Shown here piece after piece: positions 2,724 to 28,287 of a stretch of DNA of 64,000 nt. Numbering within the stretch: position 1 is the first letter of the stretch; the number at the start of each line of letters is the position of its first letter. Where the stretch lies: positions 62,001-126,000 of the forward strand of contig DXAO01000044.1 in NCBI GenBank assembly GCA_019117005.1, written 5' to 3'. Source of the DNA: Candidatus Collinsella stercoripullorum (lineage in GTDB: Bacteria > Actinomycetota > Coriobacteriia > Coriobacteriales > Coriobacteriaceae). Under the pieces are notes generated by a model. That model saw only the letters and a list, made by a program, of their open reading frames with translations. It did not search any database and was not told the DNA's origin. Made by a program: the position numbers and the translations under genes.

Positions 2724-3569
2724 TCAGGCGCGCGGACGGCGCTTCGCGGAGCTGCGAGAAGCACGGGGCTTCGGTACGGGAGCGGCGCCCTCCTGCTGCT
2801 TGGCGGCCTCGGCGCGGGAGATCTGCTCGTCCACGCTGTCGAGGTCGGCATCCTCCACGATCGCGTTCAGGGACTCGAAGACCCGGTTCTTCAGCAGCGC
2901 CGTGTGCACGCCCTCCGTGAGGTCGTGCAGCTTGTCGAAGGCGCGCTCGAGCTTCTTGTCGCGCTCGTCGTCGGAATCGTCCATGCCGAGCATGCCGATG
3001 AGGACCTGCTCGAACATGGCGGACTCGCGGTTGGCGGCGGAGACGTACTGGCGGAGGTTGCGCGGCTCGATGTGGAAGCGGTTGAGCTCGGAGCACAGCC
3101 GGATGATCTCGAAATCGCGCCCGTCGATGAGCTCGCGGTTCTGCGGGCTGCGGATGATGCGGATGAGGTCGTTGTCGGCGAGGGCGCGCAGAAACGAGAT
3201 CTCCACGCCGAGCTGGCCGGGGACGTCCTCGATGGGATGGAGCTTCTGCTGCGTCTCGATGGGCTCGGACTTGACGGGGAGATCGGACAGGAGCCCGACC
3301 TCGAAGGCGAGCGTGGAGAGGTCCGTGGCGTTGTCGAGCTTCTGCTTGATGACGTTCAGGGGCATGTAGCGCGTCTTCTGGAGATGCAGGATGACCTCGA
3401 GGCGGTCCACGTCCTCCTTCGAGTACTGGCGGTAGCCCTTGGGCGTGCGGTGCGGCGTGATGAGCCCCTCGTCCTCGAGGAAGCGGATCTTCGAGTTCGA
3501 GAGGTCGGGATAGGCGCCGCGCAGGAAGTTGACGACCTGGCCGATGCTGAGGTAGCTACGTTCGGCCAC
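2724..3569 (-). CDS. MerR family transcriptional regulator (Rv1828-like)
   Basis: A 281-residue regulator. Residues 6-70 carry the MerR winged helix: LSIGQVV, then SKIRFLEDEGLI and GYRQYSKEDVDRL. The long C-terminal part has no Cys-based metal-sensing motif and ends in a basic Ala/Arg/Ser tail. Length and context match mycobacterial Rv1828, which lies next to garA. GTG start with weak ribosome-binding sequence, two bases after the FHA gene stop, so it is likely translationally coupled to it. Target genes are unknown. Confidence 0.85.
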   Translation of the reverse strand: MAERSYLSIGQVVNFLRGAYPDLSNSKIRFLEDEGLITPHRTPKGYRQYSKEDVDRLEVILHLQKTRYMPLNVIKQKLDNATDLSTLAFEVGLLSDLPVKSEPIETQQKLHPIEDVPGQLGVEISFLRALADNDLIRIIRSPQNRELIDGRDFEIIRLCSELNRFHIEPRNLRQYVSAANRESAMFEQVLIGMLGMDDSDDERDKKLERAFDKLHDLTEGVHTALLKNRVFESLNAIVEDADLDSVDEQISRAEAAKQQEGAAPVPKPRASRSSAKRRPRA

Positions 3570-15806: not shown

Positions 15807-16484
15807 CTACCTCCTGTCCTCGGCGAGGCTTGCGATCATGTCGACGATCTCGTCGACGGTGTGGGACGTCGAGTCGATGCGCACGGCGTCGTCGGCGGCC
15901 CGCAGCGGCGCCTCGGCGCGGCTCGCGTCCAGGCGGTCGCGCCGCACGAGGTCGGCGAGGGTGGACTCGATCTCGGCGGAGAGCGCGGGGTCGTCCGCGG
16001 CGGCGCCGGGATGGCGCTGCAGCACGCGCCTGCGGGCGCGCACGGCGGGGTCGGCGGTCAGGAAGACCTTGAGCCCGGCGTCGGGGAAGACCACGGTGCC
16101 GATGTCGCGCCCCTCGGCGACGACGTCGCGGCCGACGGCGAAGGCGCGCTGGCAGGCGAGCAGCGCCCGGCGGACGCCCGGGTAGGCGGACACCTTGGAG
16201 ACGATGCGGTCGGTGGCCGGGGTGCGGATCTCCCGGGTCACGTCGGCGCCGTCCGCGAGCACACGGGGTGCGCCCCCGGCGTCGTCGAAGGCGATGTCGA
16301 GCGCGCGGGCGACATCGACGACGGACTCCTCGTCGTCAAGGTCGACGCCGCGCGCACTCGACACGTAGGCGACCGTGCGGTACATGGCGCCGGTGTCGAG
16401 CTTCGAGTAGCCGAACCGCTCGGCGAGCAGGTCGGCGATGGTGGATTTGCCCGAGCCCGCGGGCCCGTCGATGGCGATGATCAT
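15807..16484 (-). CDS. cmk: cytidylate kinase
   Basis: A 225-residue nucleoside monophosphate kinase that phosphorylates CMP and dCMP. P-loop GPAGSGKST (7-15) is followed by KLDTGAMYR, AEGRDIGTVVFP and a lid with RARRR. The insert typical of the bacterial CMP kinase is present. It overlaps rluB by four bases upstream and lies five bases before plsC. Confidence 0.96.
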   Translation of the reverse strand: MIIAIDGPAGSGKSTIADLLAERFGYSKLDTGAMYRTVAYVSSARGVDLDDEESVVDVARALDIAFDDAGGAPRVLADGADVTREIRTPATDRIVSKVSAYPGVRRALLACQRAFAVGRDVVAEGRDIGTVVFPDAGLKVFLTADPAVRARRRVLQRHPGAAADDPALSAEIESTLADLVRRDRLDASRAEAPLRAADDAVRIDSTSHTVDEIVDMIASLAEDRR

Positions 16485-17320
16485 GGGCGGTCCTTTCCTG
16501 GGACGGTCCGTTCGGTGCGTCCGGAGCCGGAGGCGAGCGCCCGCCGCTCCTCATCGGTGAGCAGGCGCCACGCCCCCTGTTCGACCCCGGTGAGCCGAAG
16601 CGGGCCGAAACGGGAGCGGTGCAGGGCCACGACGGGGTGGCCGATCCTGCCGAGCATGCGCTTCACCTGGTTCTTGCGGCCCTCGTGGATCACGACCTCG
16701 ACGGCGGAGGCGCCGTGCGGGATCCCCCGGGCGGCGACGGGCGCGGCCTCGCGCGCGCCGAGCAGGCGGCAGCGCGCAGGCTGGCAGGGGCCGTCGTCGA
16801 GCTCGATGCCGCGGCGCAGGGGCTCGAGCTCCGCGTCGGCGACGCGTCCGTCCACGAGCGCGAGATAGGTCTTGTAGACGTGGCGCGAGGGGTGCAGCAG
16901 GTCCTGGGCGAGGTCGCCGTCGGTGGTGAACAGCAGCAGGCCGGTCGTGTCGCGGTCGAGCCTCCCGACGGGGAACAGGCCCGGGAAGCGGTCGGTGGGC
17001 ACGAGGTCCGCCACGCACGGCCTGCCCTGGGGGTCGCGCATGGTCGTGACGTACCCGGCGGGCTTGTTCAGGACGAGGTGCACGGCGGTCCCGCCCGGGC
17101 GGACGGGGGCGCCGTCGACGGTCACGGTGTCGCGCGCGGGATCGACCTTGGTGCCGAGCTGGGTGACGACGACGCCGTTGACGGCGACGCGCCCGGCGGT
17201 CATGAGGTCCTCCGACCCGCGGCGCGAGGCGACGCCGGCACGGGCGAGGAAGCGCTGCAGGCGCATGGGGACGATGAGTTCCCCGGTTGCGGGGTCGCGC
17301 GGGGGCATGGGGTCACTCAT
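16481..17320 (-). CDS. 23S rRNA pseudouridine synthase, RluB/RsuA family
   Basis: A 279-residue RNA-modifying enzyme. An N-terminal S4 RNA-binding domain (MRLQRFLARAGVASRRG at about 19-35) precedes the catalytic domain with GRLDRDTTGLLLFTTDG, whose Asp attacks uridine. The chosen ATG (17320) gives 18 extra N-terminal residues; a start at the MRLQ methionine is possible. Overlaps scpB by eight bases, the standard scpA-scpB-rluB order. Confidence 0.92.
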   Translation of the reverse strand: MSDPMPPRDPATGELIVPMRLQRFLARAGVASRRGSEDLMTAGRVAVNGVVVTQLGTKVDPARDTVTVDGAPVRPGGTAVHLVLNKPAGYVTTMRDPQGRPCVADLVPTDRFPGLFPVGRLDRDTTGLLLFTTDGDLAQDLLHPSRHVYKTYLALVDGRVADAELEPLRRGIELDDGPCQPARCRLLGAREAAPVAARGIPHGASAVEVVIHEGRKNQVKRMLGRIGHPVVALHRSRFGPLRLTGVEQGAWRLLTDEERRALASGSGRTERTVPGKDRP

Positions 17321-18026
17321 CGAAGTCCTCGTCCGTCGCGTTGCCGATGAGCACGAGGTCGGCGTCGGGGTCCTCGTCGTCGAGGTCGATGAGCTCGCGC
17401 TCCTCGGCGAGCTCGTCGTCGGTCTCCTCCAGGGTCGATTGGATCGTGCGGCCGGACAGCCGCTCGCGGATGAACCGGCGCGTCTGCTCGTCGGGGGCGA
17501 ACTGCTCGAGGTCGGGGAGGTCCTTGGTGCTGCGCAGCCCGAACTTCTCGAGGAACGCCGTCGTGGTCCCGTAGATGATGGCCTGCCCGCGTTGCGGGTC
17601 GCGGCCCATCTCGCGCACGAGGCCCTTGTCGACGAGGGACGAGATGACGCCGTCGGAGTTGACCCCGCGGATGCCCTTGACCGTCTCGCGGGTCACCGGC
17701 TGGTGGTAGGCGATCACGGCGAGGGTCTCGAGCGCCGCCTGGCTGAGCTTCTGCGTGTCCCAGGAGAGGACGAGGGCCTCGACCTGGTCATGGTAGGCCG
17801 GGTGGGTGAACAGCCTCCAGCCGCCGGCGACCTCGCGCAGCTGGAACCCGCGCTCGGCCTCCTCGTACTCCACCTTGAGCTCAGCGAGCAGCGACGCCGC
17901 CTCGCCGGGGGCGATGCCGAGAACCGAGGCGAGGGAGCTTGCGCTCACCGGGTCGCTCGACACGAGGAGCATCGCCTCGAGCGCGCCCTTCAGCGAGCCC
18001 GATTCGAGCGTTTCCAGATCCTGCAT
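17313..18026 (-). CDS. scpB: segregation and condensation protein B
   Basis: A 237-residue protein with two winged-helix domains in the ScpB pattern (ALEAMLLVSSDPVS near the start, LAVIAYHQPVTR and IRGVNSDGVISSLVDKGL in the second). It partners ScpA in the SMC complex that compacts and separates chromosomes. The C-terminus has an acidic extension rich in Asp/Glu. Four bases after scpA. Confidence 0.95.
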   Translation of the reverse strand: MQDLETLESGSLKGALEAMLLVSSDPVSASSLASVLGIAPGEAASLLAELKVEYEEAERGFQLREVAGGWRLFTHPAYHDQVEALVLSWDTQKLSQAALETLAVIAYHQPVTRETVKGIRGVNSDGVISSLVDKGLVREMGRDPQRGQAIIYGTTTAFLEKFGLRSTKDLPDLEQFAPDEQTRRFIRERLSGRTIQSTLEETDDELAEERELIDLDDEDPDADLVLIGNATDEDFDE

Positions 18027-18029
18027 GCG

Positions 18030-18830
18030 CTAGTCCTCCTCGATGGCGAGGGCGTCGCCGGGCCGGTAGGCCGGCGCCCCCTCGACGCGGTTGATGGTGA
18101 TGGCGCCGAAGTTCTCCTCCTGCGCGAGCGTGACGGACCCCCGCTTGGCGAGCTCCAGGATGGCGAGGAAGGTCGCGACGACCTGCTCGGTGGTCGCCTC
18201 CCCGTCGAGGAGCTCCCGGAAGGTGGTGCGCCGGCGCGCCATGGTCACCCGGTCGACGGAGGCGACGGTGAGCTCGAGCGGCACGCGATGGGGCGCTACG
18301 TGCTCCGCCTCGAGCAGGAAGGTCTCGCGCCTGCCGTCGAGGTCGGCGCAAATGACGGCGAGCCCGCGCAGGGTGATGCCGGCGAGGTAGTCGGGCATGA
18401 GGCCCATGAACTCGGGGTCGGGGCCCGCCACGCGCGGGTGCATGCGGCTCTCCGCCTCCATGCGCGCGCCGAGCGCGGCTGCGGCGCCCTTGAACTGCTT
18501 GTAGGCGATGAGGCGGGCGATGAGCACCTCGCGCAGCTGCTCGCCGTCGAGGTCCGCGTACTCGTCGAGCTCCTCGTCTGCGGGCGCGCGGCGGGTGTCC
18601 TCCGCCGGGATGAGGGAGGCGGCCTTGATGTCGAGCAGGGTCGCCGCGACGAGCAGGAAGTCGCTCGCGACGTCGAGGTCGAGTGCCTCGAGCCGGTCGA
18701 CCTCGGCGAGGTACTGCTCGGCGACCTCGGAGATCGAGATGGAGCCGATATCCACCTTCTGGCGCGAGACGAGCTGCAGCAGCAGGTCGAAGGGGCCCGA
18801 ATAGGCCTGTGTGGTCACGCGGTACGACAC
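18030..18830 (-). CDS. scpA: segregation and condensation protein A (kleisin)
   Basis: A 266-residue kleisin bridging the SMC heads. The N-terminal FDLLLQLVSRQKVDIGSI and ISEVAEQYL are the standard ScpA signature, and the C-terminal winged helix includes LAILELAKRGSVTLAQEE. GTG start behind GGGAGGG. Expected to act in the nucleoid with ScpB and SMC; smc is not in the window. Confidence 0.95.
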   Translation of the reverse strand: MSYRVTTQAYSGPFDLLLQLVSRQKVDIGSISISEVAEQYLAEVDRLEALDLDVASDFLLVAATLLDIKAASLIPAEDTRRAPADEELDEYADLDGEQLREVLIARLIAYKQFKGAAAALGARMEAESRMHPRVAGPDPEFMGLMPDYLAGITLRGLAVICADLDGRRETFLLEAEHVAPHRVPLELTVASVDRVTMARRRTTFRELLDGEATTEQVVATFLAILELAKRGSVTLAQEENFGAITINRVEGAPAYRPGDALAIEED

Positions 18831-18885: not shown

Positions 18886-19575
18886 CTACCATCCGAGGGC
18901 GAAGCGGACGAGCAGCCGGTAGACGGGCTGCAGGGTCACGTCGAAGTACATCCCCAGAAGGTCGATGCCAAAGACCGTGGGGAGCACGTAGAGCACGACG
19001 ATCAGTATGGGCATGGCGTAGCGCTGGACCTCGTAGTAGCGGTCGAGGGCGCGCCCCTTGAGGAACAGGACGAGGATCGACGAGCCGTCGAGCGGGGGCA
19101 GCGGGATCAGGTTGAAGAAGGCCAGGGAGAGGTTGACGGCGATGAACTGCAGGCAGAAGCTCGCGACGGCCCCGGTGGTGGCCGCGCCGAGCACGGAGGC
19201 GACCGCGAAGGCGTTGTCCGCGGCGACGCGCAGCACCACGGCGCCGAGCACGGCGAGGACGACGTTGGACGCGGGGCCCGCCAGCGACACGAGGACCTCG
19301 TCGCGCTTGGGGTGCTTGAGGTTGCCCAGGTAGACCGGGACCGGCTTGGCGAAGGCGAACACCGGCCCGCCCGCGGCGATCATGAGCAGCGGCAGCAAGA
19401 CGGTGCCGAAGGGGTCGATATGGCGCATCGGGTTCAGGGAGATGCGCCCGCGCGAGCGCGCGGTGCGGTCGCCCAGCAGGTAGGCCGCCAGCGCGTGGGC
19501 GCTCTCATGGACCACGATGCCCACGATAACCGCCGCGGCCGAGGCGAGGATGTACAGAACGTAGCTCCAGTCCAT
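18886..19575 (-). CDS. site-2 protease family (M50) membrane metalloprotease
   Basis: A 229-residue polytopic protein. The zinc motif HESAHA lies in the first membrane segment, followed by GRISLNPMRHIDPFGT and, in a later segment, LIPLPPLDGS, the third metal ligand. No PDZ domain, so this is the short YwhC/SREBP-protease-like subfamily, distinct from the RseP protein in this window. Substrate unknown. Its neighbour relation to scpAB is common in Gram-positive genomes. Confidence 0.9.
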   Translation of the reverse strand: MDWSYVLYILASAAAVIVGIVVHESAHALAAYLLGDRTARSRGRISLNPMRHIDPFGTVLLPLLMIAAGGPVFAFAKPVPVYLGNLKHPKRDEVLVSLAGPASNVVLAVLGAVVLRVAADNAFAVASVLGAATTGAVASFCLQFIAVNLSLAFFNLIPLPPLDGSSILVLFLKGRALDRYYEVQRYAMPILIVVLYVLPTVFGIDLLGMYFDVTLQPVYRLLVRFALGW

Positions 19576-19583
19576 GGGGGCTC

Positions 19584-19866
19584 CTATCGCAGGGCGCGGG
19601 CGGCCCGCTGCGCCGCGTAGTCGACCACGAGCAGGAAGACCATCGCGAGGGCGAAGTCGAAGCGGAAGACGCCGCCGAAGGGCGAGGTGATGAGGCCGTA
19701 CCCGGCGATGACGTCGGGCAGGGCCTGCGTGAGGTCCATCACGAGCCCCATGATGTTCAGACGCACCGCGACGCCCGGGAAGCACAGCAGGACGGTGAGC
19801 AGGCCGAGCAGGATGGCGCAGACGCGGGCGATGTAGGAGAACACGGTCAGGGCGACGGCGCCGGCT

Positions 19867-26934: not shown

Positions 26935-28287
26935 CTACAGCAGGCGCAGGATGTCGGCGCGCAGCATGTAGATGAACAGCAGGCCGAAGAGCGCCACCCC
27001 GACATAGGAGATGGCGGTCTGCACGCGCATGGGCACGCGGCGGCGCGACACGGCCTGGATGGCCTCGATGAGCAGCTTGCCGCCGTCGAGCGGCGGGATG
27101 GGGAGCAGGTTCATGAAGCCGAGGGACAGCGAGATCAGGCCGGCGAAGGCGAGGTAGGTCGAGGGCCCCGCGGATGCGGCCTCGGCGGCCATGGCGGAGA
27201 TGCCCACGACGGAGGTGGAGTTGTCGAGGACCTCCATGGTGCGCGAGGGCACGAGCAGCTGCGCCACCCCGGATGCCGTCTGGGCGACGTAGGCGACCGA
27301 GACGCGCGCCGAGTCGACGGGGTTCAGCCGGACCGTCTCGCGGCTCACCTCGATGCCGATGGTGCCGTCCTCGGCGGGGGTGATCGAGGACGCGCGCTCC
27401 TCGCCGTCGTGGACGAAGGTGACGGGGATGTCCTCGGTGCGCTCGGTCGCGTCGAGGGCGGCGAGGATGTCGGTCCAGGACCCGCACGCCTCCCCGTCGA
27501 CCGAGGTGATGGCGTCGCCCGCGGCGATGCCCGCCTCCTGTGCGGGGGAGCCCTCGGCGACGGCGCCGATGACGTTGGTGTCCACGGCGACGGTGACGCC
27601 GATGACGGAGTAGACGCTCATGATCAGCAGCATGCCGCAGACGACGTTCACGAGGATGCCGGCGACCAGGATCAGGGCGCGGGACCAGAAGCCCTTGCCC
27701 GCGTAGGTCGCGGCGCGCTCCTGCTCGAGGAAGGCCTGCTCCCCCATCGTCGGCTCCCACGGCTCGCCCTCGGCGGTCGCGTGCTCTCGATCGAACCGGC
27801 GGCCGTCGAACAGGGTGCGGCCGGCGGCGTCGCGCGGGACCGAGGCGAAGGACGCGGGGTAATAGCGGCGGTCCTCATCGGGCTCGTACGCGCATGCGAG
27901 CGACCCCCATCCCACGAGCATCGCGCACGCCTCCTGCACGTCCTCCTCGCTCTCCCCCAGCTCCGCGGCGAGCTGAGCCGTGGAGACGGTCCCATGGCGG
28001 TGCACGGCGGAAAGGACGGCGGCGGCGCAGGGCGTCTGCGCGTCCTCCATGCCCGACACGGCGGCGTAGCCGCCCAGAAGGATCGGGGTGACGCCGAACT
28101 TGGTCCCGATGCGCTTCGAGACGCGGTGGATGTTCTTGGAGCACGGCAGGCCGAGGAAGAACTCGGTCACGCGCACGCCGCAGGCGCGGGCCGCCAGGAA
28201 GTGCCCGCCCTCATGGATGAAGACGAGGACGGACAGGGTGAGCAGGCCCCAGAAGAGGGCGGAGAGAAAACCGACGGCTGCGTCCAT
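26935..28287 (-). CDS. rseP: RseP-type site-2 protease with inserted winged-helix-like domain
   Basis: A 450-residue intramembrane zinc protease. HEGGH (25-29) is in the first membrane segment and LPIPPLDGG (394-402) supplies the third ligand; a PDZ domain spans about 237-315. Between the conserved GGY loop (72-74) and the second membrane segment (from about 203) lies an extra region (about 83-185). Its start, VLSAVHRHGTVSTAQLAAEL with the following EEDVQEACAMLVGWGSLACAY, reads like a winged helix. Family members usually have only a few tens of residues here. That segment should face the cytoplasm, so it could sense or recruit a regulator. Substrate is unknown. Confidence 0.92.
   Translation of the reverse strand: MDAAVGFLSALFWGLLTLSVLVFIHEGGHFLAARACGVRVTEFFLGLPCSKNIHRVSKRIGTKFGVTPILLGGYAAVSGMEDAQTPCAAAVLSAVHRHGTVSTAQLAAELGESEEDVQEACAMLVGWGSLACAYEPDEDRRYYPASFASVPRDAAGRTLFDGRRFDREHATAEGEPWEPTMGEQAFLEQERAATYAGKGFWSRALILVAGILVNVVCGMLLIMSVYSVIGVTVAVDTNVIGAVAEGSPAQEAGIAAGDAITSVDGEACGSWTDILAALDATERTEDIPVTFVHDGEERASSITPAEDGTIGIEVSRETVRLNPVDSARVSVAYVAQTASGVAQLLVPSRTMEVLDNSTSVVGISAMAAEAASAGPSTYLAFAGLISLSLGFMNLLPIPPLDGGKLLIEAIQAVSRRRVPMRVQTAISYVGVALFGLLFIYMLRADILRLL

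Follow-up and report, generated by a model that had tools for sequence, protein, structure and literature searches.

A predicted winged-helix domain in the first cytoplasmic loop of the RseP/RasP-type protease of Coriobacteriia

The rseP locus and its product

The window, that is, the whole stretch of 64,000 nucleotides that was analysed, comes from Candidatus Collinsella stercoripullorum and carries ORFs in the order frr, uppS, cdsA, dxr, rseP, ispG and proS. The identical order, frr-uppS-cdsA-dxr-rseP-ispG-proS, is annotated in Collinsella aerofaciens. A neighbourhood of the cdsA-dxr-rseP-proS type is thus present around the gene, and the order dxr-rseP-proS is also found in Bacillus.

The protein scored 190.9 bits against TIGR00054, the RseP equivalog profile (cut-off 147.55), and matched Peptidase_M50 in Pfam with an E of 2.4e-43. 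Pfam also found a single PDZ domain, and the HExxH and LDG motifs are intact, as an earlier reading of this DNA from its letters alone (hereafter the sequence-only reading) had stated (Table 1). The profile score, the PDZ domain, the intact motifs and the gene order allow us to conclude that, by sequence, the protein is an RseP/RasP orthologue and not a divergent paralogue; its motifs mark it as a putative intramembrane protease. In Foldseek, the full-length AlphaFold2 model matched solved RseP structures (E of 1.5e-17 to 7w6x).

A second M50 protease, of the site-2 protease family, lies at 18886-19785 of the window on the minus strand. The ORFs directly downstream of it resemble scpA (18030-18830) and scpB (17313-18026), and an ORF like an rsuA/rluB-type pseudouridine synthase (16481-17320) is also found there.

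Table 1. Features of rseP and its product, with their positions in the window
Feature	Residues	Positions	Strand	Evidence
Putative RseP/RasP-type site-2 intramembrane metalloprotease, 450 aa		26935..28287	-	ORF, translation, TIGR00054, Pfam, synteny
HExxH zinc-binding motif (HEGGH), TM1	25-29	28201..28215	-	Translation; invariant in alignment A4
Membrane-reentrant beta-loop region, up to GGY	53-77	28057..28131	-	AlphaFold2 strands E53-56, E63-66, E73-77
Inserted winged-helix domain (predicted)	88-149	27841..28026	-	AlphaFold2, full-length and isolated insert; Foldseek, VIA
Recognition helix a3, acidic	114-126	27910..27948	-	DSSP of model; column composition, 144 homologues
W127, near-invariant tryptophan closing a3 (DWGSI/GWGSL motif)	127	27907..27909	-	97% W in 144 homologues
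Variable charged tail, wing to TM2	150-190	27718..27840	-	Two models; 22-24% mean pairwise identity
PDZ domain between TM2 and TM3	228-302	27382..27606	-	Pfam PDZ_2 E 1.1e-9, PDZ_6 E 2.8e-10
LDG motif, third zinc ligand	400-402	27082..27090	-	Translation; invariant in alignment A4

The insert, its fold and its distribution

The GGY of the window protein is at residues 72-74. The insert (residues 83-185, window positions 27733-28041) comes after GGYAAVSGM (GGYxxxxGM) and before YAGKGFWSRA, the start of TM2. From GGY to TM2 there are about 130 residues, with about 100 residues of extra sequence; both the length and the coordinates given for the insert in the sequence-only reading were right. In the RseP ORFs of Coriobacteriia (n=179), the median distance is about 128; three values of 22 among them are regex artefacts, and those proteins also have the insert. 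In the RseP of other Actinomycetota (n=28), GGY and the TM2 arginine are a median of 30 residues apart (range 25-75).

An equal length in ordinary RseP/RasP proteins had been proposed as an argument against an inserted domain. Two RasP proteins of Bacilli (from B. velezensis and E. gallinarum) do have 106-107 residues at the same loop position, so the number is equalled, but the winged-helix content differs. A long loop alone is not unique to Coriobacteriia; the difference is the winged helix that it holds.

The full-length AlphaFold2 model, built from an alignment of 53 class members, had a mean pLDDT of 93 and a pTM of 0.87. In this model, the insert forms a1 (88-98), b1 (100-102), a2 (103-110), a3 (114-126), b2 (130-133), a wing and b3 (146-149), and a1-b1-a2-a3-b2-wing-b3 is the order of a winged helix-turn-helix. 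The pLDDT is about 95-97 over a1-b2, and the insert folded alone took the same fold (94-97 over residues 11-50 of that model). The idea that the first part of the insert alternates like a helix-turn-helix with a wing was borne out, as the segment quoted for it (99-134) is a2-turn-a3-b2 in the model. The AlphaFold check suggested for the insert returned a confident winged helix and not disorder, and structure comparison agrees.

Searched against the PDB with Foldseek, the isolated insert matched winged helices of MarR, ArsR/SmtB, Z-alpha and ESCRT-II, with an E of only 5e-3 at best because the domain is short. Re-alignment in VIA to 4lb5, a Z-alpha domain, gave a Z of 10.2 and an rmsd of 1.4 Å over 63 residues, and the top VIA rows listed are winged-helix proteins. 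Several class members matched MarR_2 (E 7.5e-6), TrmB (E 5.5e-5), FtsK_gamma (E 1.2e-4) and PafC (E 1.6e-4) in Pfam, where winged-helix matches span E 1e-3 to 7.5e-6 and the scores, where shown, are below the curated cut-offs. The models predict that the insert holds a complete winged-helix domain.

The second part of the insert had been described as charged and flexible. This holds for the wing tip (134-145), which is of low confidence in the model, but not for residues 150-180, where pLDDT is 88-93 in the full-length model versus about 50 when the insert is folded alone. That these residues are confident only in the full-length model suggests that the tail probably packs on the protease. In the RseP of an Adlercreutzia and a relative, both Eggerthellaceae (L190:3028-3513 and L191:3028-3498), the tail after the winged helix carries a low-complexity Ala/Pro-rich extension.

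Conservation across the RseP of Coriobacteriia, which the sequence-only reading had asked to be checked, proved class-wide. Of 296 Coriobacteriia genomes, 279 matched a profile of the 58-residue core at E <= 1e-5; most of the others are fragmentary or divergent. Several of the 17 genomes without a core match also lack an RseP match and some are incomplete, while two of family f6 (L042 and L045) have a divergent insert. In a sample of 396 genomes of the phylum, strong matches to the core profile were limited to Coriobacteriia; weak ones (about 32 bits or less), which were judged by length, were in ORFs of other lengths, many of them FtsK- or regulator-sized. Among the other Actinomycetota sampled, RseP has a loop of about 30 residues, and no winged-helix insert was found in it.

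A pattern scan with one genome per species confirmed 275 relatives. The 80 of these that were listed are all Coriobacteriia or MAGs titled Actinomycetota, Actinomycetes, uncultured bacterium etc., and the named relatives in the scan include Senegalimassilia, Adlercreutzia, Gordonibacter, Raoultibacter, Parvibacter, Berryella, Olsenella and Atopobiaceae. We infer that the domain was probably already in the last common ancestor of Coriobacteriia. An artefact or frameshift as the source of the insert was ruled out by the continuous ORF and by conservation of the insert in hundreds of genomes, and the latter also rules out a lone acquisition by this species.

Mean pairwise identity is 43% for the winged-helix core, 33% for PDZ, 44% for TM2 and 22-24% for the tail. 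The core is thus conserved above PDZ and close to TM2, which shows that it is under constraint.

Two irregularities were seen among MAGs of the class. In one (L169:2809-3168), the RseP reading frame ends within the insert, about 120 residues in, through either a frameshift or an assembly error. Two others, of one family (L136 and L139, inserts 3028-3423 and 3028-3444), have about 30-40 extra residues between a2 and a3.

Acidic surface, W127 and possible roles

Substrate is bound in E. coli RseP by two elements of the first cytoplasmic loop, a GFG motif and the adjoining membrane-reentrant beta-loop (PMC7728848). That the insert should face the cytoplasm, as had been expected, follows from this established topology, carried over to the present species. 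Since the insert starts directly after the beta-loop, orthology would place the winged helix in the cytosol, close to the site of substrate presentation.

We lean towards the view that the winged helix is a cytoplasmic module for protein docking or gating beside the substrate-binding beta-loop, a role suggested by analogy and by charge. The recruiting or sensing module proposed in the sequence-only reading thus still seems the likeliest of its suggestions. Placed in the first cytoplasmic loop, directly after the beta-loop and before TM2, it would hold a cytoplasmic partner, either an adaptor or the cytosolic portion of a substrate, by its acidic a2/a3 face and/or W127. Alternatively, it would regulate entry to the adjacent beta-loop and the active site. 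In both cases it would act from the cytosol, as PDZ filters substrates from outside.

The charge of the domain bears on the suggestion, made together with that of a recruiting or sensing module, that the insert may bind nucleic acid. Such a winged helix would bind DNA or RNA and keep the protease tethered to nucleic acid or to ribosomes. Most domains with this fold bind nucleic acid, and Z-alpha and MarR domains are among the top structural matches. However, the 144 distinct cores are acidic without exception, with net charges from -3 to -14 (mean -7.8); in the column composition of the 144 homologues, the exposed a2 and a3 positions are rich in D/E, and a3 as a whole has almost no K/R. By comparison, FtsK gamma domains of the same order, which share the fold, have a mean net charge of -0.65 and basic residues in the recognition region. 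Acidic cores with a recognition helix nearly devoid of basic residues make nucleic-acid binding unlikely, the suggestion is disfavoured, and tethering to DNA or RNA seems to us very improbable.

W127 is invariant in alignments A4, A5, A6 and A7, and it aligns with K in FtsK gamma (LEEKGIV versus LxDWGSI). Its position is usually exposed in such folds and we take it to be so here; homologous folds likewise suggest how the winged helix may pack against the membrane domain. If exposed, an invariant tryptophan would point to a site of protein contact, with a partner or with the protease itself.

G99, L124 and W127 are the only near-invariant residues of the core in the 144 homologues, and no conserved set of ligand residues, cysteine, histidine or other, was found in it. 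This argues against a domain that senses a cytosolic small molecule, metal or redox state, like the ArsR/MarR repressors, and so switches the protease. We regard such sensing as improbable, even though the closest folds include the ArsR/SmtB and MarR families and, in site-2 proteases of group III, CBS domains act as cytosolic regulators (PMC10202637).

The contact of W127 might also be internal. The winged helix would then be an intramolecular structural element without an external partner: packed against the first cytoplasmic loop, it would stabilise the beta-loop and TM2, and W127 and the tail would be buried against the protease. Consistent with this, the tail at 150-180 is confident only in the full-length model and so probably touches the protease, and the pTM of 0.87 points to a defined placement of the domain. 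In other Actinomycetota, a linker of 25-35 residues is enough, and the insert may be a lineage-specific elaboration. On the other hand, a full, independently folded domain exceeds what packing needs, the acidic a2/a3 face is kept class-wide, and the winged helix survives the loss of PDZ described below. A purely structural role is possible but, in our judgement, doubtful.

For the docking role, we also looked at partner types known from other bacteria. EcsB, found in the B. subtilis control, gave no match above the cut-off in 39 Coriobacteriales genomes; EcsAB, the regulator of RasP, was therefore dropped as a partner, and any partner here would differ from it. No zf-HC2 anti-sigma factors were found in this genome and they were dropped as substrates, and a screen of the neighbours of Sigma70_r4_2 matches for membrane proteins gave no clear anti-sigma candidate. 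With EcsB and zf-HC2 both not found, neither known partner type is assignable.

The PDZ domain, the usual sensing domain of such proteases, is not kept throughout the class. In Eggerthellaceae-type RseP (n=36, mostly about 350-380 aa), Pfam found M50 in 36/36 and PDZ in 0/36, versus PDZ in 32/32 of the other class members, including the window protein. All 36 PDZ-less proteins keep the winged helix and W127. It is tempting, if speculative, to regard the winged helix as a cytosolic receptor for substrates or adaptors that was acquired once in the ancestor of Coriobacteriia and took over enough of the filtering for Eggerthellaceae to discard PDZ. The PDZ-less proteins are a natural test of the need for PDZ in substrate choice. 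Their loci (L171, L141, L154, L167, L173 and 31 further Eggerthellaceae-type ones, within L141-L210) retain the group I beta-loop region and the LDG motif, with a short stretch from TM2 to the next conserved segment.

Comparison with known systems

E. coli RseP has two PDZ domains. With E. coli RseP (7w6x) and group I in general, the window protein shares the HExxH/LDG core, the membrane-reentrant beta-loop and an extracytoplasmic PDZ between TM2 and TM3; unlike it, they have no winged helix. Other Actinomycetota have a loop of 25-35 residues where Coriobacteriia have the insert.

In Bacillus and Enterococcus, the RasP/RseP orthologue lies beside proS, and in Bacillus also beside dxr. No sequence similarity was detected between the window insert and the corresponding segment of one Bacilli RasP (hhalign probability 0.2%), which leaves deep homology possible. 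RasP function in Bacilli needs the cytosolic ABC ATPase EcsA (PMC7478892), and in PDB entry 9a6w RasP is modelled with EcsA on the basis of crosslinks; the main texts of the B. subtilis crosslinking papers that are possible sources of this model do not name RasP. Through this need for EcsA and 9a6w, the parallel in Bacilli supports docking at this loop position. The long segment at the same loop of two Bacilli RasP (L242:715-1983 and L243:727-1995) is apparently strand-rich, a possible parallel insertion.

The winged helices of FtsK gamma, MarR, PafC and TrmB have the same fold as the RseP domain and weak sequence-profile similarity to it. They mostly bind DNA, whereas the RseP domain is acidic, carries W127 where they have K/A, and is part of a membrane protease.

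The groups of site-2 proteases are told apart by the extra domain: PDZ in group I, CBS in group III and none in groups II and IV (PMC10202637). By title and abstract, the literature on site-2 proteases and winged helices describes no such architecture, and we found no work on RseP in Coriobacteria. RseP proteases, which normally release stress signals, form a well-known family; a winged helix beside the beta-loop is an architecture that we found in no paper. SpoIVFB of group III is likewise a site-2 protease with a cytosolic regulatory domain. Its CBS domain is C-terminal and of a different fold, and group III has no PDZ. Coriobacteriia are gut and environmental bacteria, with common gut inhabitants among them, and the fixation of the winged helix in their RseP points to cytosolic control of intramembrane proteolysis.
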